Assembly: GCA_001797815.1 (NCBI GenBank)
Contig: MGQK01000052.1
Location: 9,002 to 22,672 of the forward strand
DNA length: 13,671 nt
Direction of reading: 5' to 3'
Source: Deltaproteobacteria bacterium RBG_13_61_14
GTDB taxonomy: Bacteria; RBG-13-61-14
In this document: positions 1-13,566 of the stretch, one piece after another
How the letters are laid out: the number at the start of each line of letters is the position of its first letter
Numbering within the stretch: position 1 is the first letter of the stretch
Position numbers and translations under genes: made by a program
Notes under the pieces: model-generated
What the model was told of the DNA's origin: nothing
Database searches by the model: none
The model's input: only the letters and a program-made list of their open reading frames with translations

Positions 1-3000
1 GGTGTTGAGGTTGGCCAGCCAGGCGGGGCTGCCAAAGGGAGAGCCGAGGCTGGGCCTTTGCGCCAGGAGCAGGTTGTAGTTCCAGGTGGAGTCGATCCAC
101 TGGACAAAGTAAAGGCGGAGCTGGTCGTCGCTGGGCATGGGATGCAACTGCCATTGAGAGGTGTTGAGTTCGGTAATGGGCTGAGGTGCCCCAAAGGACT
201 GGTCCCAAGCCGGCCGGGTCGCGGTAAACAGGTTAAAGTCGGTGGCGACCGTGCCGCTGGCGAAATACAAGGTCAGCCGGTCGGCGGAGATGGAAGGCCC
301 GGTCTCATCATCCAGGGTGTTAATTTCGCTGACATTGACCGGGGGTCCAAAGGGTTCATTGACGCTGCCCCGGACTGCGCGGTAAATATCCAGCCCACCC
401 GAACCACCGGCCTGGTTGGAGGCAAAGAAGATCTCAAGGCCATCGCGGGAGACGGAAAAGGCCGACTCGCGGGAGATCGAATTGAGGGCGGAGTGCTCGG
501 CCAAGGTGCGGCGGGGCGGGGTCTCGCCGTCGCCGCCGAAAAAGATGCCGCTGCCGGAGATCACCTCAAAGACCACGGCCAGGCCGGGCCGCGGGGTTCC
601 ATAGTTGAGGGCATGAGTCTCGGCGGTGATGCGAAGGGTAGCCCCGACCTGGACCGAGGGAGAGGATCCCGCGGGTTCCAGCAGGGTCATGGGCCCGGGG
701 TATCCGGAGCAGGGCGACTTTCGTCCGTTGAGTATAATCGAATAGCAGTTCAGGTCCGGAACACCCAAGATTCCATTTCCGTCTAAATCCTGGGTGTCGC
801 CATTGGGCGGGACCACCTGGCTGTAGCTGGGATTCCGGCCGTTAAGGTAGAGGGACAACGTGTTCTTGTCTGGAACCCCGATGATCTGATTTCCGTCGGC
901 GTCGAGGAAGAAACAGCCGGCCGGGTAGCAGGTGAGGTCGGGCTGTTGAGGATCCGACTCGTTAAAGAACTCGTTCAGGTTGGCCAGGCCGTCGCTGTCC
1001 GGGTCGGTCAGGGGGTTGAGGTCGAGGCCGCCATCGCTGGGGTCATAAGCATTCAGGCCGTTCGCCGTCTCCCAGGCGTCGGGCATCTGGTCGTTGTCGT
1101 CGTCCGGGTCGAGGTAGTCAATCACGGTGTCGCCGTCACTGTCGCGGTTGGCATCGGAAGTGACGGTGGTGTAGGCCTTGAAGCTCCAGACCTCGTTGTC
1201 CCGGACCCGGAGGCTGAGCAGGTAGATGCCCGGCACGTCGTCGTCAAAAGTGGGCTGAGGGGAAGAGGGATCGGAGAGGGTGGCCGCGCTTCCGGCCGGC
1301 CGCGATTCCAGCTCCCAGGCGTAACCCAGGATGGTTCCATCCGGGTCGTAACTGGCGGTTCCGTCCAAGGGGACCGGCGCCGGGTCGTAGAAGCTGACGA
1401 TCTGATCCGGCCCGGGCACCGGGACCGGCAACTGGTTGCCCAAGGTCTTGACGATAATTTCCACGGTATCGGCATTGAGGCTGTCATCAAAGCCGTCGTT
1501 GACCCCGAGGTCAAAGACATAATTGCCCACGGTATCGGGTTGAAAGGTCGGGTGCACCGGGTCCGAGGTATTCAGGGTCACCGCCGGCCCGGAAGTTTGG
1601 GTCCATTGGTAGGACAGGGTGTCGCCGTCCAGGTCGGAGCTTCCCGACCCGTCCAGGGTGACGAGGGTGTTGACGAGCGCGACCTGGTCCGGCCCGGCCG
1701 CGGCCACGGGCAGGTGGTTCAACACCTGGACCTGGACCGTGTCGCCGAGGCTGACGGAAAGCCCATCGCTGACCACCAGGGAGAAAAGGTAAAGGCCGAT
1801 ATAGCTCGGGTCCGAACTGAAGGTAGGCATTTCGGCCGTGCCGCCGGGCAGGAGAGTAACGGCCGGGCCTTGGAGCTGTGACCACTGGTAGGTGATGGGT
1901 TCGGCATCGGGATCGTAGCTCCCCGATCCGTCGAGCAGGAAGCTGTCGGCGCGGTAGCCCTGCCGATCCGGTCCGGCAATCGCGACCGGGGCATGGTTGA
2001 AGTGGGGGGTGACCTCGGCCAGGACCATGTCCTCGTTCAGGCTCCAATCATAGCCGTCAAAGACGCGCAGGCCGAAGCGATAGGTGCCGACCTGGGGCGC
2101 GTTAAAATAGGGATGGACCGGATCGTCGGTGTTCAAGGTGGCCGGCAAACCTTGGTATTGCACCCAGCTATATTCCAGGAGGGGATCGTTATCCGGATCG
2201 GCGCTCAAGCTGGCGTCGAAGGTGATGCGTTTGAGCACCTCGTTGGTCTGATCGGGACCGGCGTCGGCGACCGGGGGTTGATTGAGGACCGTGATCCACA
2301 CCGTGTCCCCGGGGCTGGGATCGTAGCCGTCAAAGACGACCAGGGAGAAGAGGTAACTGCCGGCCCGGGCCGGATCGAAGCTGGGCGCGACCGCGGTATT
2401 GCCGGGGACAAGGGTGACCGTGGCGCCTTCGAGTTGGGTCCACTGGAAGGTCAGCGGATCGCTTTCGGGGTCGGAGCTTCCTGAGCCGTCCAACACAAAA
2501 GGGCTGCCGCGATAATCGGCCTGGTCCGGGCCGGCGTTCGCCGAGGGCGGCAGGTTCCAGACCGTGACGGTTACCGTGTCCGCGTCGCTGGCCAGGTTGA
2601 GGGCGTCATAGACGGTGAGGGAAAAAATATACTTGCCCGCATAGGAGGGATTGGGCGTGAAGGAAGGTTGCGCAGCCGTATCGCTGGGGAGCAAGGTGAC
2701 GGAGGCCCCTTGCACCCGGGTCCACTTGTAGCGGATGGGGTAGTCGTAGTCCGGGTCCGAGCCGGATCCTTCCAGGGTGAAGCTGTCCGAGCGATAGCCG
2801 GCTTTATCCGGTCCGGCGTTGGCGACGGGTTTCTGGTTGGGAAGCATCGGTCCCACCACCCGAAAATATTTGTCCAGGACAATGCTGGGACCGCTCGGGT
2901 TTTGAGCGGCCAGGGTATGATAGTCGTAACGCGCGTTGTAGGCGATCCGGATGGTGATCTGGAACTGGCGGTCGCTGATATACTGCTGGTTGGTGATGGT

Positions 3001-5427
3001 GATGCCGCCGAGGGGGAAGGCAAAGGTGGTGGAGGGTTGGAAGTTGATCCCCGTGATAGTTAGCAATTCATTGAGTTGCTTGAGCTGGCCCGAGCCGGGG
3101 TTGATATCCCACACGAAGGGTTCGCCGGTCTGGTAGCTGAAACCGTTGAAGTAGCGGCGAAGCAGGAAGGGAAGGTTTGCCTTGTTGTAACTGCTTTCCA
3201 GGGCATAGGCGAGGAAGATCACGCGCGGCCCGGACACATACGGCTCCGGATAACGGATCACGGTGAAGTGGCTGTAGTCGTTGTAGACCGAGCCGGCGGC
3301 GCCGGCGCCGGGGACGAGGCCGACGGTCCGGTTATACAGGGGAAAGTAAGGCCATCCGAGAAGGTAATTGAAGGAAGCGCTGCTATGGCTGATCGGATCA
3401 TTGGTGATGCCCTGGATTCTTTCCACGGCATAGCGATCGTCGAAGTGGCCGGCGACGTGGAGGTAATTCTGGGCAAAGGTCAGGGTCTCGGCCGAGGGAT
3501 TGACGAGGAGGTAGGGACTGGAGAGGAGGAGCTGGCCGCCGGCATCGAGGTAGCCGGCCAGGGCGCTTTGCTCGGCCGGGCTGAGCGGCTCGGGCCGGTC
3601 GGTGCCGGTGGCCCAGAGGACTCGGGCATAGTTGGACAGGTCGGCGGCCGCCGGAGCGCCTTTTTGGGCCACTTCCCAGGTGTCATAAAAATAGAGGTAG
3701 TAATCCAGCCCGGGTTTCAGGTAATTATCCACATACTGACCGCCGTCATCGTCCACGTAGAGCAAGGCCGGATGCCCGATCCGAAAATAAATGTATGCCG
3801 TTTTGGAATAAGCCCCGGCATTGGCCTTGAGACTAATGCTCCAATAATACCGGGAATAGTTGTAGGCGCTCGTGATCTCGGATTTGATGGTCGAATCCAG
3901 GGCGGGCGCGCCGCCGGCCGTGCCCCCGGGGGCCAGGTCCGGGAAGCTGGAGGTGTTTTGATTCACCGTATACCAACCCGCCGGGTTCAGGGTGGCGGTC
4001 ACTCCGGTGGCGGTGGCGCCGTCATTCACCAGGGTTAAAGCCAATTGAAAGCGCTCGCCCGGCTCGAAATACCAATCGCCGTCGCCCGTCACCGGGATGA
4101 CCTGGTAGCTCTTGATTTTCAGATCGGGCGCGGAAAGCCCGGAGACATAGCGGTCCAACCAAACCTCCGCGGTCATCATCGCCGCGGGATCGCTGATGTT
4201 TGCCACCGCTACCCCGGAGAGATAGCAGGCGTAGTTCTTGCTGCTCGGGGTCGTGGATCCCTCAAAGCTCCGATACGCACCGCCTCCGGGGTAGAGATCA
4301 GTGGTATCTCCCCAATTCACCTTGTCCTCCAAATCGAAGTAGCCGTCGGCCTGTTCCAGGGCCAGGCGGGGGAAAATACTCGTGCAGCCTCGGCTCTCCC
4401 GTTCGTTCTGGAACAAGGCCCGGTCGTCCACATGCCAGATGGACAGGCCTTCACTGGGAAGCAAGGCATGGTTTCCGGTGCGGGTGAGATTGGCCAGTAA
4501 AAAATACTCCCGGTTGTCATCCGGATTGGCCGGCACTTTCCAGACCACAGGATTCGTTTCAAAAGCCGGCACGCTCTGGAGTCCCTGGGTGGCAGGGGTT
4601 ACCAGGGTGGGCGTGATCCAACCCATCTGCACCTTTTGCCAGGGCGAGGGATGCGCCGGCGGCTGGTCCGGGGTATAAACCCCCGGGTCCACGCCCCACA
4701 CCCCCCTGCACATCAAATCATAAACCCCGACCCCGTTGGAGCTGGCGTCATAATCGTAGCTGTCAATCATTCCCATCAGGTGTCCGAACTCGTGGGCAAT
4801 CGGGCCGATATTGAAAATCCCGCCCCAGGGACTGATTTCCGGGACAATCATAAAGGCGTCCACGATCACCCCATCGTAGGCGCGAGCCTGGCCCCCACCC
4901 CTGCTGATCATGTCTATGGTGGTCCAAATATCATTGCTATGACCATTGATCTCGCCGCCTTCGCCCTGGTGGAGGATGATAATCGCGTCGGCCTCGCCGT
5001 CGCCGTCATTGTCATAGAGCGAGAAGTCCACCCCGGCGGCCTGGGCCGCATCCACCGCTTCTTCAGCCAGCCGATACATGTTTTGCGGATAATAAGAGGC
5101 CCAGCGGCCGTAAGTGCCTGGGCTGTAATAGTCGTGGCTCTGGCTGGCCGGATACCAGCCATAAACGTCCCCTTGCAGGTCGAGTTGGCCATAGGAGACA
5201 TCCAGGAAATAATCCCGGACGCTGCCGACCCCAAGGCCGAAAATCCTCTGGTTTAACTCCGCCGGCGAATAGGTGGTGGTGGTGTTATTGAAGTTGATGA
5301 GAAGGACCAGGACGCGGGGAGAGCCGACGGCCGGAACCCATCCCGCCTGGACCGAAGTCCCGGCAACGGCCGTGAGAAGCACGAGAACCAAGCCTGCGAG
5401 CCAGCGATGAGAATCCCGGAGATTCAC
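1..5427 (-). CDS. Secreted M6-type metalloprotease with six PKD domains, dockerin-like doublet and PD40 propeller (partial, C-terminus off window)
   Basis: The frame is open without a stop for 1809 codons to the left edge. GTG at 5425-5427 is chosen because AGAGG lies about 10 nt upstream and a clean signal peptide follows (Arg4/Arg8, hydrophobic 10-23, likely cleavage after VQA28). An in-frame GTG at 5443-5445 is the alternative. HEFGHLMGMID at residues 212-222 is the M6 (immune inhibitor A-like) zinc site, so this should be an exported peptidase. Then, roughly: CARDB-like region 438-530; Rossmann/ThuA-like segment 552-640 (LLYVDDDGG); IPT/TIG-like 771-859; six PKD/K319L-type domains with GPD motifs at 872, 966, 1057, 1152, 1245 and 1339; acidic thrombospondin-3-like calcium-binding stretch 1429-1485; dockerin-like loops at 1509 (DADGNQIIG) and 1547 (DLDGNGILG); short Ig-like strand region; PD40/TolB-like propeller repeats from about 1640. 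Substrate is unknown. The protease call is firm; domain edges are approximate. Confidence 0.9.
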   Translation of the reverse strand, partial: MNLRDSHRWLAGLVLVLLTAVAGTSVQAGWVPAVGSPRVLVLLINFNNTTTTYSPAELNQRIFGLGVGSVRDYFLDVSYGQLDLQGDVYGWYPASQSHDYYSPGTYGRWASYYPQNMYRLAEEAVDAAQAAGVDFSLYDNDGDGEADAIIILHQGEGGEINGHSNDIWTTIDMISRGGGQARAYDGVIVDAFMIVPEISPWGGIFNIGPIAHEFGHLMGMIDSYDYDASSNGVGVYDLMCRGVWGVDPGVYTPDQPPAHPSPWQKVQMGWITPTLVTPATQGLQSVPAFETNPVVWKVPANPDDNREYFLLANLTRTGNHALLPSEGLSIWHVDDRALFQNERESRGCTSIFPRLALEQADGYFDLEDKVNWGDTTDLYPGGGAYRSFEGSTTPSSKNYACYLSGVAVANISDPAAMMTAEVWLDRYVSGLSAPDLKIKSYQVIPVTGDGDWYFEPGERFQLALTLVNDGATATGVTATLNPAGWYTVNQNTSSFPDLAPGGTAGGAPALDSTIKSEITSAYNYSRYYWSISLKANAGAYSKTAYIYFRIGHPALLYVDDDGGQYVDNYLKPGLDYYLYFYDTWEVAQKGAPAAADLSNYARVLWATGTDRPEPLSPAEQSALAGYLDAGGQLLLSSPYLLVNPSAETLTFAQNYLHVAGHFDDRYAVERIQGITNDPISHSSASFNYLLGWPYFPLYNRTVGLVPGAGAAGSVYNDYSHFTVIRYPEPYVSGPRVIFLAYALESSYNKANLPFLLRRYFNGFSYQTGEPFVWDINPGSGQLKQLNELLTITGINFQPSTTFAFPLGGITITNQQYISDRQFQITIRIAYNARYDYHTLAAQNPSGPSIVLDKYFRVVGPMLPNQKPVANAGPDKAGYRSDSFTLEGSGSDPDYDYPIRYKWTRVQGASVTLLPSDTAAQPSFTPNPSYAGKYIFSLTVYDALNLASDADTVTVTVWNLPPSANAGPDQADYRGSPFVLDGSGSSDPESDPLTFQWTQLEGATVTLVPGNTAVAPSFDPARAGSYLFSLVVFDGYDPSPGDTVWITVLNQPPVADAGPDQTNEVLKRITFDASLSADPDNDPLLEYSWVQYQGLPATLNTDDPVHPYFNAPQVGTYRFGLRVFDGYDWSLNEDMVLAEVTPHFNHAPVAIAGPDRQGYRADSFLLDGSGSYDPDAEPITYQWSQLQGPAVTLLPGGTAEMPTFSSDPSYIGLYLFSLVVSDGLSVSLGDTVQVQVLNHLPVAAAGPDQVALVNTLVTLDGSGSSDLDGDTLSYQWTQTSGPAVTLNTSDPVHPTFQPDTVGNYVFDLGVNDGFDDSLNADTVEIIVKTLGNQLPVPVPGPDQIVSFYDPAPVPLDGTASYDPDGTILGYAWELESRPAGSAATLSDPSSPQPTFDDDVPGIYLLSLRVRDNEVWSFKAYTTVTSDANRDSDGDTVIDYLDPDDDNDQMPDAWETANGLNAYDPSDGGLDLNPLTDPDSDGLANLNEFFNESDPQQPDLTCYPAGCFFLDADGNQIIGVPDKNTLSLYLNGRNPSYSQVVPPNGDTQDLDGNGILGVPDLNCYSIILNGRKSPCSGYPGPMTLLEPAGSSPSVQVGATLRITAETHALNYGTPRPGLAVVFEVISGSGIFFGGDGETPPRRTLAEHSALNSISRESAFSVSRDGLEIFFASNQAGGSGGLDIYRAVRGSVNEPFGPPVNVSEINTLDDETGPSISADRLTLYFASGTVATDFNLFTATRPAWDQSFGAPQPITELNTSQWQLHPMPSDDQLRLYFVQWIDSTWNYNLLLAQRPSLGSPFGSPAWLANLNT
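1405..2845 (-). repeat. Six tandem PKD-type domain repeats inside the protease gene
   Basis: The translated minus strand repeats a module opening with N-x-x-P-V-A-x-A-G-P-D, then an L-x-G-S-G-S-x-D-P strand, a Y-x-W-x-Q strand, and a final F-x-L-x-V-x-D-G strand. The GPD glycine codons are at 2812-2814, 2530-2532, 2257-2259, 1972-1974, 1693-1695 and 1411-1413, a period of 91-95 residues. The copies differ at DNA level, so this is an old protein-level duplication, not a recent tandem duplication. Such domains usually form a stiff extracellular stalk. Confidence 0.85.
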
Positions 5428-5436
5428 CCAAGCTCT

Positions 5437-5486
5437 ACCTCTCACCGAAACGCTTTTTCTTGGCCGAGCCCAAACCCCTCACCGAA
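5437..5486 (-). repeat. 13-bp imperfect direct repeat before the protease start
   Basis: ACCTCTCACCGAA (5437-5449) and ACCCCTCACCGAA (5474-5486) match at 12 of 13 positions, 37 bp apart. On the transcript (TTCGGTGAGRGGT) the proximal copy contains the AGAGG ribosome-binding element and the alternative GTG. Confidence 0.45.
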
Positions 5487-6020: not shown

Positions 6021-6031
6021 GATGCTTGAGC

Positions 6032-6940
6032 ATGGTCACGATCCAGATCCTGGGCATCGGCGAGATTACCACCACCGTGGCCCTCCAGGGTCCCCTGGAC
6101 CACCGCCACCCTCAGACCGGCCGGCGCGTCACCTGGGCCTACAAGCGTTTACCCTCTTTCCCTTCCGAGGCGGAAGCCCGCGACTACATGCAACTCTTCT
6201 CCGACTACCAGGACGCTCTCGCGCAAGCCGGCATCCGGCTGCCCTATCAACGGCCGCGGCTGGTTCGCTCGCAAGGAAAAATCTGGGTCTACGTCTGCCA
6301 GGAGCGGCTCCCGGCCGAGACCATCGCCTCCCGCGCCATCGGCCCGGCCCCGATCGCTAAATGCCGGGAGATCTTCGGGCAAGTGCTGAACGAGCTCCTC
6401 AAGGTCTTCCTCTGGAACGCGGCCCATCCCCAACTCCTCCTCGGCTTTGACGGCCAGATCCCCAACTGGGTGATCGCCGATCCGGGGCTCCTCTACCTCG
6501 ATACCTCCACCCCGCTGCTCCGCCGCCACGGCCAGGAACTCCTCAACACCGAGCTCTTCCTCAAAGCCATCCCCATCCTGCTCCGGCCCCTGGTCCGCGC
6601 CTTCCTGCTCCAAGACGTGCTCGACCGCTACTACAACCCCCGCCTGGTCACCCTCGACCTGATCGCCTCCTTCTACACCTTCCGCCGGCCCGACGCGGTG
6701 CCGGCGCTGGTGGACCACGCCAACCTTTTCCTGGCCCGGGAGATGGCGGCCTTCTCGCTAGAGCCCTTCACGGTCCAGGAGATCCATTCCTACCACCGCT
6801 CCGACCTTTGGCTCTGGAAGTTCCTGCGCGCCATGAAGCGGCTGGACCGTTTCCTCAGCGAGGACCTCCTGGGCCGGCCCTACGAGCAGCGCCTCCCCAG
6901 GGACCGCAAGCTCGAACAAGCTATTCGCGGAAGCCGCTGA
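6032..6940 (+). CDS. DUF6206-like protein (kinase-fold-like, function unknown)
   Basis: A 302-residue soluble protein. I recognise a likely DUF6206 pattern: GIGEIT (8-13), AYKRLP (36-41), VYVCQE (87-91 region), GFDGQIPNW (138-146) and ADPGLLYLDTSTP (149-161). By position these resemble the glycine loop, ATP-binding lysine (K38), hinge, catalytic loop (D140, N145) and metal-binding Asp (D150 or D157) of an aminoglycoside-phosphotransferase-like kinase. That fold assignment is inference, and the usual HxD is absent, so activity is uncertain. ATG 6032 is preferred; TTG 6026 is in frame, and TGA at 6020-6022 blocks further extension, so a longer N-terminal arm is excluded. No signal peptide or membrane segment. 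It is the only plus-strand protein gene here, is monocistronic behind two promoters, and converges on the glycosyltransferase gene 52 bp away. Confidence 0.75.
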   Translation: MVTIQILGIGEITTTVALQGPLDHRHPQTGRRVTWAYKRLPSFPSEAEARDYMQLFSDYQDALAQAGIRLPYQRPRLVRSQGKIWVYVCQERLPAETIASRAIGPAPIAKCREIFGQVLNELLKVFLWNAAHPQLLLGFDGQIPNWVIADPGLLYLDTSTPLLRRHGQELLNTELFLKAIPILLRPLVRAFLLQDVLDRYYNPRLVTLDLIASFYTFRRPDAVPALVDHANLFLAREMAAFSLEPFTVQEIHSYHRSDLWLWKFLRAMKRLDRFLSEDLLGRPYEQRLPRDRKLEQAIRGSR

Positions 6941-9160: not shown

Positions 9161-9763
9161 TTAAAGAAGGGTTGAAGTAAGGTTTTTCACTAAGAATTCA
9201 ATATCGCGACAAAGTTTATCAAATGAAGGGCATGTTTCACGCGCTAAGTTAAGATCCATACCCTTAGAGAGGGCGGCTTGGTCAATAGTTTCTTTGTATT
9301 TTTTATCCATGGATCGCGAGAGCCATGTCTTGGCATCGCGGATTTCTTCCGGGTTGGCGGGCCTGGTAGCTTGATCGGATATCCCCCGCTGACCGCGTAA
9401 GGAATCAATGCAACCAATGAACCAAGCCTCATATTCTCTTTTAGCCAATACCACACTCACGGGAATGGAGGGGCTGGTTCGTCTGGCTCTTTTCAGGAGA
9501 ATTGGGGCGAGTCGCTTCGGGCAGTCTTGATCGTCATCGGCATCCAGAATGATGATGATTCCGGCGCAAGCGGGATGAAGTCTCGCCAGCCTCACGGCGT
9601 TTTCGATTCCGCCCTTTTTAAGTAATCTCGTTTTGGGGATCCGGATCGGCCGCGCCACGCCGACTTGATAAACCTTCGCGCTCTCCAGAAGTCTTCTTAA
9701 GAGAATGGGCACCGCTTCCACTTCGCCGTAGCCTTCTACAATGGGCACGAGAGAGGGAGGCAT
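9161..9763 (-). CDS. DUF4276 family protein (TOPRIM-like), partner of the upstream ATPase
   Basis: 200 residues. The DUF4276 pattern is clear: VPIVEGYGEVEAVPILL at the N-terminus with E10 and E14; IIIILDADDDQDCP (69-82) with the acidic D74-x-D76; VLAKREYEAWF (105-115); and a C-terminal YKETIDQAA...MDLNLARE...SFDKLCRDIEFL region. The N-terminal Glu and the DxD match TOPRIM metal-binding positions, so a nuclease or nucleic-acid-acting role is likely by family, not shown. ATG 9761-9763 overlaps the TGA of the ATPase gene by one base (TGATG), indicating translational coupling. The gene is AT-richer than the flanking genes. DUF4276 proteins are often encoded next to AAA ATPases in defence contexts. 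Confidence 0.88.
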   Translation of the reverse strand: MPPSLVPIVEGYGEVEAVPILLRRLLESAKVYQVGVARPIRIPKTRLLKKGGIENAVRLARLHPACAGIIIILDADDDQDCPKRLAPILLKRARRTSPSIPVSVVLAKREYEAWFIGCIDSLRGQRGISDQATRPANPEEIRDAKTWLSRSMDKKYKETIDQAALSKGMDLNLARETCPSFDKLCRDIEFLVKNLTSTLL

Positions 9764-10968
9764 CAGGATTTCTCGGAGGGAGGGAAATCAAACAGGTCTT
9801 GCGATTTCCAGGGGACATAATCTTCATCAGCCACGAGCTGGTTGGCGCGGAGGAGTTCCCCCAAGGTAGCAAGCCTTTTCTTGATCGCCAACTTAGAAAT
9901 GGCCCCAACTGGTAAAAGCCAGGTTTCCCCTTCGCGGAATTCTACGAGACGGAGGTTGGCCTCGGTCACCGTCGAATGATCCAAGAGATCTGGGCAATGG
10001 GTTGTCACCAGGATCTGAGAACGGGTTCGGGCCTCAGCCAAAGCATCTATCAGGACGCCAAGCGCGCCGGGATGAATCGTGGATTCGGGTTCCTCAATGG
10101 CGACCAAAGGCGGGGGTGGTACTTGGTTCAAGGCCGTGAGTACCCCCAAGGCTCGAAGAGTACCATCCGACATATTCAAGGCTGGAAAACTCCATTTGTA
10201 TTCTTTATTCCCCTTACGGGTCTTTTGCCAAAACTTCAGCGTTAGTTTGTTGCCTTGGGGCAAAGGTTCGACTGCGGTCACTCCCGGAAGAACTTGGCTT
10301 AGCAGCTCACATACCGACTGATACCCGTTTTTTTCTCCCGCTTGTTTGAGTTCGCGAAGCATGGAAGCAAGGTTGCTCCCATCCTTTTTCAAAGCCAGGC
10401 CCGGGTCCGGTTCTTGCAATTCCCGAATCCGATCCGGAACCAGATTATAGAATCTCCAGTTGCAAAGATTATCAAAGAGACCGGAAAATTCTTCTACCGC
10501 CGAAGTAATTTGAAGTGCCAACCGATGACGATCCAGTTTAGCTCGAACCCCTTCCACTCCCACCACAAATCTTCCTTCCCGAACTTCATAGGAGGAGACG
10601 GAAAGCTTCTCCTTGGATTCCACCCGGCATTTTTCTTGCTTGATTTCAAAATCTCCATTCGTCTTGGCCGCCACTTCAAAAGCATAATGAGCAGTTTTAT
10701 TTTCTCCTCGATCTTCATATTCGAGGATAAGAGAAATCCCGAAATCTCGTGGTTTCGATTTCGAATGGTACCGAACGGTTTGAATTCCCCCGCGGTTTTC
10801 AAAAGCCGTTTGCACCGATTCCTTCACCGATTCTTGAACAAAACGCAGCGCGTCTAGAAAGTTGCTCTTCCCGGAGCCATTGGGTCCCACTAGAAAGGTA
10901 AGAGCATCTAAAGAAATCCGGATATTAGCCAGGCTCCGAAAATTCTTGATGGTGACTTGACGGATCAT
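9763..10968 (-). CDS. AAA/ABC-type ATPase (AAA_21/AAA_15, OLD/RecF-like)
   Basis: 401 residues. N-terminal IKNFRSL then Walker A GPNGSGKS (28-35); a long insert (about 60-260) replaces the usual coiled-coil arm; an ABC signature-like NMSDGTL (265-271); Walker B PLVAIEEPE (287-295); STIHP D-loop region; and switch His324 in LVTTHCPD. This is the head domain of SMC/RecF/OLD-type ATPases, close in layout to ATPases of defence systems. It lacks a C-terminal TOPRIM; that function seems supplied by the downstream DUF4276 protein. ATG 10968 fits the conserved start (MIRQVTIKNFRS). A near-consensus promoter lies 14 nt upstream. Codon third positions are visibly AT-richer than in rnj or the glycosyltransferase, suggesting acquisition. 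Nucleic-acid sensing is an inference. Confidence 0.9.
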   Translation of the reverse strand: MIRQVTIKNFRSLANIRISLDALTFLVGPNGSGKSNFLDALRFVQESVKESVQTAFENRGGIQTVRYHSKSKPRDFGISLILEYEDRGENKTAHYAFEVAAKTNGDFEIKQEKCRVESKEKLSVSSYEVREGRFVVGVEGVRAKLDRHRLALQITSAVEEFSGLFDNLCNWRFYNLVPDRIRELQEPDPGLALKKDGSNLASMLRELKQAGEKNGYQSVCELLSQVLPGVTAVEPLPQGNKLTLKFWQKTRKGNKEYKWSFPALNMSDGTLRALGVLTALNQVPPPPLVAIEEPESTIHPGALGVLIDALAEARTRSQILVTTHCPDLLDHSTVTEANLRLVEFREGETWLLPVGAISKLAIKKRLATLGELLRANQLVADEDYVPWKSQDLFDFPPSEKS

Positions 10969-10981
10969 CTCAGCAGATTCA

Positions 10982-11010
10982 TTTATAGCAAGTTTGAGAA
11001 ATTATGTCAA
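10982..11010 (-). promoter_or_regulatory. Near-consensus sigma-70 promoter of the ATPase/DUF4276 operon
   Basis: TTGACA (11005-11010), 17-bp spacer, TATAAA (10982-10987). Predicted start near 10975 leaves a leader of only about 7 nt before ATG 10968. The -35 begins 18 nt after the rnj stop codon, and no terminator separates the two. Confidence 0.7.
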
Positions 11011-12784: not shown

Positions 12785-13333
12785 TCAAAGTTTCCAGGAA
12801 ATCTTGACCTGGGTCTGCGGCGCGCCCTGCCAGGTGGCGGTCAGGATCTCGTTCTGGATATTTTTGGCGCCGCACATTTCCAGGGACCGTTCCATCCAGC
12901 CAAACATGATGTAATAGAGGGGCACGAAGGCGGGGTCGAAGTCCGTGACCGTGACCAGGGCCTCGCTCGGCCCGAGCTCTTTGACCTCCACTTTTCCGAA
13001 ATCGAACATGTTGCGGAGGTAGGTCGGGTATTTGAGCAGGGAGTCCATGGGGTGGCCCTCGCGGATGATCCCCTTGTAGAGGTTGCTCACGATCGCCTCG
13101 CCGTAGAACCCGCCCCACTTCCGGACCGTTTCCACATCCTTCTTGGCCAGGATCTCGAACACCCCCTGGAAGACGTGCTTGAAAGTTTCGAAAGGATACC
13201 AGGCGCTCGGAAGCAGGCGCTGGGAGAAAAGTTTCCTGTCTTCCTCCGTGAGGTATTTCTCGTACGCTTGACTTTTGCTGGCCTTGATGGTCTTGACAAA
13301 GTCAATCAAAATGCTGCCCTTAACTCGCTTCAT
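12785..13333 (-). CDS. TIGR02265/DUF2378-like protein, function unknown
   Basis: 182 residues from ATG 13333, preceded by GGGAG 7 nt upstream; a longer frame from 13387 exists but its extra 18 residues (APERPRLHTG) look non-coding and lack a ribosome-binding site. The sequence has MKRVKGSILIDFVKTI, then EDRKLFSQRLLPSAWYPF (about 30-50), an amphipathic helical part with GGFYGEAIVSNLYKG, and a beta-rich C-terminus with VTVTDFDPAFVPLYY and GWMERSLEMCG. This order (WYPF motif, helical middle, a 'GWMERSLEMxG' segment) fits the TIGR02265/DUF2378 family best known from Myxococcota, related in fold to heme-NO-binding/V4R sensor domains. No known function and no membrane segment. It could be co-transcribed with rnj. 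Confidence 0.72.
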   Translation of the reverse strand: MKRVKGSILIDFVKTIKASKSQAYEKYLTEEDRKLFSQRLLPSAWYPFETFKHVFQGVFEILAKKDVETVRKWGGFYGEAIVSNLYKGIIREGHPMDSLLKYPTYLRNMFDFGKVEVKELGPSEALVTVTDFDPAFVPLYYIMFGWMERSLEMCGAKNIQNEILTATWQGAPQTQVKISWKL

Positions 13334-13566
13334 CGCACTTCTCCCTGTGTGAAGTCTTGGCCTCTCTGGAGCAGAAGCCGTCGGCATCAGGCATCAGACT
13401 CCATTTAAAAATTTTTTTAAGTTTATCATGAATTAGACCCAAAGTCCAGAAAAATTTAGCCGGCCCTTGCCCCCAAAACCCCCAAACAAATACCCGAACC
13501 TGGGTCGCTGGAAAAGATAAGACAAGAGCCCGCCCCGCCTTTGAGGTGGGTTGGCCTGGCTAAATT

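Follow-up and report, generated by a model that had tools for sequence, protein, structure and literature searches.

In OLD proteins of classes 1-3, the ATPase and the TOPRIM domain are fused in one polypeptide. In BpOLD, the ligands of metal A are E400, D455, and D457; those of metal B are E404, T506, and E508, with E508 located in helix 1 of the helical domain (PMC6755086). PARIS (AriA/AriB; OLD class 4) instead has a separate OLD-type ATPase and TOPRIM effector encoded in one operon. There, AriA forms a hexamer that sequesters AriB. The effector stays inactive as long as no phage protein is bound; once one binds, tRNA is cut (PMC12409363). TOPRIM-linked OLD-ABC dyads were described as a class before PARIS (PMC12839542), and TOPRIM_OLD toxins are neutralised by an AAA partner (PMC10440598). 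Several of the Hma-embedded candidates (HECs) are active against phages (PMC12988326), and HEC-04/IbfA is active against coliphages (PMC12111858). HEC-01 is listed in one Desulfovibrio piger strain in one paper, and text searches of the literature returned no functional description of DUF4276 or HEC-01.

Here we describe a gene pair encoding an ATPase and a DUF4276 protein in a stretch of 13,671 nucleotides from Deltaproteobacteria bacterium RBG_13_61_14 (contig MGQK01000052.1), which as a whole is called the window. In this pair, the OLD architecture of an ATPase and a TOPRIM nuclease is divided between two coupled genes.

Locus organization and membership in HEC-01

The pair and its neighbors are listed in Table 1. 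The reading frames and the junction letters (CC TGATG CC) agree with the stop/start overlap described in the initial annotation, one base being common to the ATPase stop and the DUF4276 start, and translational coupling of the two genes through TGATG is likely. The upper coordinate given there, 11010, additionally takes in a near-perfect sigma-70-like promoter site. TTGACA-17-TATAAA has one match with no mismatches in the window, where 0.01 would be expected; a promoter scan demanding T at the last -10 position misses the TATAAA site. As 13 bases lie between this site and the ATPase ATG, the ATPase transcript would be near-leaderless.

Table 1 Positions of the features of the gene pair and its neighbors in the window
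Feature	Position	Strand	Remark
ATPase HEC-01A, OLD/Rad50-type ABC, predicted sensor/regulator	9763..10968	-	401 aa, ATG start
HEC-01B, DUF4276 TOPRIM nuclease, predicted effector	9161..9763	-	200 aa, ATG start
TGATG stop/start overlap	9761..9765	-	ATPase stop and DUF4276 start
Sigma-70-like promoter TTGACA-17-TATAAA	10982..11010	-	13 nt before the ATPase ATG
ATPase C-terminal tail, residues 376-401, NQLVADEDYVPWKSQDLFDFPPSEKS	9766..9843	-	holds SQDLF
Low-GC island spanning both genes	9161..10968		from GC and codon model
RNase J	12708-11029	-	first in transcription order, directly before the ATPase
Small cupin-like ORF	9131-8739	-	directly after the DUF4276 gene
PMT-family membrane protein	8717-6993	-	after the cupin-like ORF

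Three other genes of the window were recorded. A DUF2378/TIGR02265 protein (12785-13387, minus strand), whose family is named from Myxococcus, adjoins RNase J. A DUF6206 protein with a TTG start and a GC content of 65.6% is encoded on the opposite strand (6026-6940, plus strand). At the window edge, a very long ORF (1-5445, minus strand) running off the edge looks secreted, with a metallopeptidase-like start and PKD-like repeats as judged by eye.

Compared with the models of PADLOC-DB 2.0.0, the ATPase matches HEC-01A (PDLC04178, 6.1e-124, residues 2-385 of 401) and the DUF4276 protein matches HEC-01B (PDLC04196, 9.3e-69, residues 4-193 of 200). The window pair further resembles HEC-01 in adjacency, in its shared strand, and in the ATPase-first order. 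On these sequence matches, the pair is a member of HEC-01, an already listed candidate virus-defence system. The proposal that the pair is not well described therefore needs correction, since PADLOC-DB lists it as candidate HEC-01 and TOPRIM-linked OLD-ABC dyads were described earlier (PMC12839542). The window copy differs from the Hma-embedded arrangement, being located between RNase J and the cupin-like ORF among housekeeping genes, whereas the relative at L009 is embedded in Hma. Such embedding led to the discovery of the family and is no requirement for every copy.

The association of the two genes extends to relatives. With DUF4276 alone as the query, the ATPase was found directly upstream of DUF4276 on the same strand in all 32 outside loci (28 genome loci, three plasmids, and one phage contig), mostly with an overlap of 4 nt. 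Other queries yielded 20 further loci, every one of which showed the same pairing, and DUF4276 was present in 26 of 30 loci found through the ATPase, within the DNA stretch covered. The HEC-01B model matched by the window protein is also matched by each of the 31 DUF4276 relatives. This pairing is far beyond chance, and the ATPase and DUF4276 almost certainly form one unit.

The ATPase is of the OLD type

The ATPase contains Walker A (G28-P-N-G-S-G-K-S35), the signature S267-D-G-T-L, a Walker B motif ending in I291-E292-E293, and the switch histidine H324, so that all four motifs by which the initial annotation had recognized a RecF/OLD-type ATPase are located at the stated residues. They are invariant or more than 90% conserved among 31 relatives. 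Pfam AAA_21 matches the protein with 7.6e-28 and 98.9 bits, and AAA_15 with 82.8 bits; both are the families used for the ATPase of PARIS. The AF2 model (pLDDT 92.7) resembles Rad50 and SMC heads (Z 19-22) as well as PtuA of Septu (Z 19.9), and the family profile finds PtuA, OLD, GajA, and AriA among its matches to solved structures. The protein is an OLD-type ABC ATPase. In one relative, L012, the ATPase carries a frame break.

Predicted fold and metal site of the DUF4276 protein

Pfam matches were considered at E<=0.1, and DUF4276 is the only family matched by the small protein (5.6e-17, 63.1 bits against a cut-off of 30.2). Its AF2 model has a mean pLDDT of 95.8 and a pTM of 0.91. In a Foldseek search of this model against 350,542 PDB chains, the C-terminal regions of OLD occupy ranks 1-4 with a best E of 6.8e-4, although the match is distant, with a TM of 0.47 and 16% identity. 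VIA-align superposes the model on OLD over 170 residues (Z 9.7, rmsd 4.2-4.3); lumazine synthases equal OLD in Z but cover only about 133 residues of the model. The best PDB match is thus the TOPRIM-plus-helical region of OLD, and AriB is absent among the structural matches listed by VIA-align and Foldseek, which carries no weight in either direction. A designed repeat protein, 7ue2, appeared as a relative with the single sequence (1.6e-7) and was lost with the family profile, and this hit was rejected as spurious.

In the alignment of 31 relatives, V9-E10-G11-x-G13, D74, E110, E112, W114, E139, Y156, Q162, and S180 are invariant, and E14, D76, and D77 are more than 90% conserved. With model residue 1 and OLD residue 391 as the starts of the aligned ranges, E10 falls on E400 and E14 on E404. 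In addition, D74/D76 match D455/D457, and E110-x-E112 match T506-x-E508 in order and place, a parallel rather than a superposition of coordinates; E110 and E112 are placed at the start of the helical part of the model. We infer from the model that DUF4276 is a putative two-metal nuclease of the OLD/RNase M5 type. The TOPRIM-like E10 and DxD 74-76 pointed out beforehand are accordingly conserved residues, and the structure prediction suggested for the 200-residue protein yields an OLD-type TOPRIM match, not the lack of a TOPRIM fold. To the extent that the model is accurate, this residue-level assignment of DUF4276 as a predicted OLD-type nuclease is new.

Comparison with described systems and proposed mechanism

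The window pair shares with class 1/2 OLD and GajA the ATPase type, the TOPRIM-plus-helical nuclease, and the succession of E, E, DxD, and a later acidic metal-B residue. Unlike the fused OLD proteins, it consists of two ORFs. It also differs from Gabija in its neighbors: the GajB helicase does not adjoin the pair, which is accompanied by RNase J, the cupin-like ORF, and the PMT-family protein. HEC-04/IbfA resembles the pair in having an ATPase and a TOPRIM domain and in its screening origin, and differs in being a single fused protein. AbiL/AAA-TOPRIM_OLD toxin-antitoxin pairs likewise combine an ATPase with a small TOPRIM-like partner, but the partner in AbiLii is RloB, for which the window pair has no match at E<=0.1. 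The closest likeness in organization is to PARIS, whose effector AriB is a DUF4435 protein (PF14491; PMC9122126), whereas the effector of the window pair is DUF4276. DUF4435 has no match in the pair at E<=0.1 and none in the genome, and membership in PARIS was ruled out for want of it. The window pair is therefore PARIS-like in logic and not PARIS. For the proposal that the pair follows an ATPase-sensor/TOPRIM-effector logic with another effector family, the split OLD architecture is supported, and the PARIS-like logic is its likely reading.

From these comparisons, HEC-01 is probably best explained as a horizontally acquired split OLD pair, in which the ATPase would act as sensor and holder and DUF4276 as effector, with PARIS-like logic. 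The ATPase would be an oligomeric sensor that keeps the DUF4276 nuclease inactive. A signal of phage infection would alter its ATP or partner state, and the nuclease would be freed or activated. DUF4276 may then cut RNA or DNA by two-metal catalysis and the infected cell would be stopped, an abortive infection comparable with that of PARIS or AbiL. Counting against this explanation are the location of all three copies of the pair in its own genome outside defence islands and the distance of the modelled nuclease from its structural match.

Another way in which the same proteins could protect the cell is direct restriction, in which a standing complex like OLD or GajA cuts phage DNA on a nucleotide-level or DNA-end signal and the cell survives. 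In its fold and in the residues of its metal site, DUF4276 comes closest to Class 2 OLD DNA nucleases, the ATPase is nearest to Rad50/SMC heads, which bind DNA, and the clamp-binding peptide considered below would suit DNA-tethered cutting. The domains are, however, encoded apart, an arrangement shared with PARIS and AbiL, whose effectors are kept inactive, and release is better served by separate coupled genes than by a fused nuclease; this argument is not decisive, and we consider direct restriction unlikely.

Horizontal transfer and genomic neighborhoods

The GC content of the pair is 49.8-50.6%, compared with 66.0% for RNase J, 64.3% for the PMT gene, 60.8% for the cupin ORF, and 61-66% for most window genes; the spacers have 35%. 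When a codon model is trained on the flanks, it misses both the ATPase and the DUF4276 gene. The same bias is found in relatives, the pair being below its flanks in GC in 24 of 28 outside loci. In the ATPase tree, phyla are mixed at short distance, for example Nitrospirota with Planctomycetota and Acidobacteriota with Latescibacterota, and relatives are found on Streptomyces plasmids and on one phage-labelled contig. The family of the window protein is present in 9 of 290 surveyed genomes. Low GC together with the mixed-phylum ATPase tree indicates horizontal transfer, by which the window pair would have been acquired. No insertion-element ends were found around the pair, and the flanking repeats are short and at chance level only. 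Same-order relatives offered no clean empty site, because the genes neighboring RNase J differ and the identity is only 51%. A pseudogene reading of the copies in G234 and G202 ("stop inside") was discarded, as the ORFs are open and the matches run past the gene end.

The genome itself contains three copies, in the window and on contigs C53 and C9, all among housekeeping genes, which means that there is no defence island here. The pair on C53 (L081, 9953-11846), near the contig end, is a second paralogous pair with 43-45% identity; its GC is about 50% in surroundings of 60%, and its ATPase tail is without QLxLF. On C9 (L082, 1247-3036), a divergent third pair of an ATPase and a DUF4276-like gene lies between ribBA and ribH, followed by nusB, seemingly inside the riboflavin operon, and its ATPase ends in KQLSLFR. 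A same-order relative (G002, L086-L090) has five DUF4276 genes of other subfamilies on several contigs, each adjoining an ATPase.

The surroundings of relatives were surveyed over 213 neighbors within 6 kb of 31 loci. Three loci have the pair within or beside Hma genes, arranged as HmaB-pair-HmaC (L009), pair-HmaC (L017), and HmaA-PDC-S01-pair (L011). On a Streptomyces plasmid (L079, 10186-14569), the pair adjoins a Gabija system and a fic-family toxin-antitoxin gene. Moreover, ZacC (L028), a type IIG enzyme (L024), a BrxH-like helicase (L030), and PDC-S60 (L016) are located near the pair. A control of 143 genes on 14 arbitrary stretches, taken almost entirely from other genomes and not genome-matched, contained a PD-T4-6 kinase, mad6, and one CARF-HEPN gene (among 25 of 49 families listed). 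Because HEC-01 owes its name to Hma, the Hma cases are partly circular; this does not apply to those of Gabija, Zac, IIG, and BrxH. A survey without enrichment near defence genes or mobile elements, or a DUF4276 model lacking a TOPRIM fold, had been named in advance as evidence against the interpretation; instead, relatives lie beside or inside defence systems and the fold is of the OLD type. A defence role is accordingly kept as a candidate function of the pair, judged from sequence and gene context.

These neighborhoods also bear on whether the pair could be selfish, with a nuclease toxin and an ATPase antitoxin maintained by addiction and no real defence role. Related AAA/TOPRIM_OLD pairs do act as toxin and neutraliser (PMC10440598), and the window pair has its own promoter and occurs in up to three copies per genome. 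Such an addiction pair is nevertheless very improbable here, as relatives are embedded in and beside dedicated defence systems, the sensor-type ATPase has been conserved for long and across the tree, and deletion of ariA or ariB in PARIS is non-toxic (PMC9122126).

A fixed locus in a probable Poribacteria lineage

Of 84 genomes in the phylum of G041, 60 contain the ATPase. This phylum is probably Poribacteria, since the copy groups with a named Poribacteria copy (L003) with support of 98/95. More than 20 of its genomes have the pair at a fixed locus, PhyH-pair-sulfatase, where the names phytanoyl-CoA-dioxygenase-like and sulfatase are read from the sequences. Within one probable Poribacteria family (L126-L153), the pair is nearly universal at this locus, sometimes as two tandem copies, e.g., in G340, G357, G365, and G371. 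Over 210 genome pairs, dS is 1.2-1.6, near saturation and similar for all four genes, and dN/dS is 0.115 for the ATPase and 0.160 for DUF4276, against 0.044 and 0.015 for the neighbors. The fixed locus and these ratios show that the pair is old in the lineage and under purifying selection while changing faster than its surroundings.

One fixed, nearly universal locus is unusual and counts against a purely mobile defence role. It brings in the alternative that the pair, in some lineages at least, serves replication-linked housekeeping or genome surveillance, as reported for the archaeal OLD protein Cran1 (PMC12796447). Besides this precedent, the prevalence and fixed locus in the probable Poribacteria, the purifying selection, and the QLxLF tails described below would all fit such a function. 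Elsewhere the distribution is patchy, the tree mixes phyla, GC is low, and defence genes are neighbors, and the pair evolves faster than adjoining genes at similar dS, as expected of an immune gene. We consider such a replication-linked function quite improbable. The pattern in this lineage fits a long-kept immune gene and leaves room for a replication-linked function.

A clamp-binding-like tail in the ATPase family

Many ATPases of relatives have tail peptides such as QLDLF, QLELF, QLRLF, QLNLF, and QLSLF, mostly 6-12 residues from the end and beyond the folded part; in the window ATPase, pLDDT drops from about 97 to 42-77 in the tail. Sliding-clamp-binding motifs follow Q-aliphatic-x-[LM]-[FL], with QLxLF as the best form; they are C-terminal in several partners and slightly favor D at position 3 (PMC11139829). 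To remove redundancy, the ATPases were clustered at 60% identity. Of the resulting 32, Q[LI]x[LM]F is present within the last 30 residues of 12, compared with 0 of 356 control proteins and with 0.07 expected from shuffled tails (at most 2); the pattern has no match elsewhere in the ATPases. The pattern was then fixed and applied to ATPases collected later, of which 12 of 23 (80% clusters) carry it against 0.04 in shuffled tails; these are not independent events, as they belong to one lineage. Altogether, 33 of 66 tails are canonical and 9 more have Qxx[LM]F; Q1, L2, L4, and F5 are kept, and position 3 is free, with D the commonest residue. These sequences suggest a clamp-binding-like tail as a new feature of the HEC-01 ATPase family, and the literature searched reports no clamp-tethered OLD/TOPRIM defence system.

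Tentatively, HEC-01 ATPases could thus be replisome-tethered infection sensors, docked on DnaN through QLxLF, with takeover or stalling of replication freeing the TOPRIM nuclease. In many relatives, the ATPase would then probably dock on DnaN in addition to holding its partner, placing the sensor at replication forks. The main rival is that QLxLF docks the DUF4276 partner or serves ATPase oligomerisation, and not the sliding clamp. In favor of this, the peptide is located C-terminally in the ATPase, next to the gene of the partner. On the other hand, the pattern of kept and free positions, including the mild preference for D, is the published clamp profile (PMC11139829), and the peptide recurs (...SKQLSLFR) in the divergent clade of the C9 copy, whose partner barely matches DUF4276; partner docking therefore appears rather doubtful.

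As for clamp tethering in the genome studied, the window tail SQDLF deviates from the canonical Q-aliphatic-x-[LM]-[FL] and is a degenerate form. DnaN docking is doubtful for the window pair on this account, and as the C53 copy has no such peptide, the clamp hook may be weak or lost in this genome. If tethering is true, the window copy would be a variant in which the tether is partly lost.

Implications for the HEC-01 family

Our analysis provides a mechanistic placement for HEC-01, a listed but little-described defence candidate. For DUF4276, whose name marks a function not yet assigned, it predicts a two-metal nuclease of the OLD type and names residues suited to mutation. If the clamp tail is real, the sensor would notice infection by watching the replication fork. 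The fixed, near-universal copies in one probable Poribacteria lineage invite us to ask at what point an immune module passes into the core genome.
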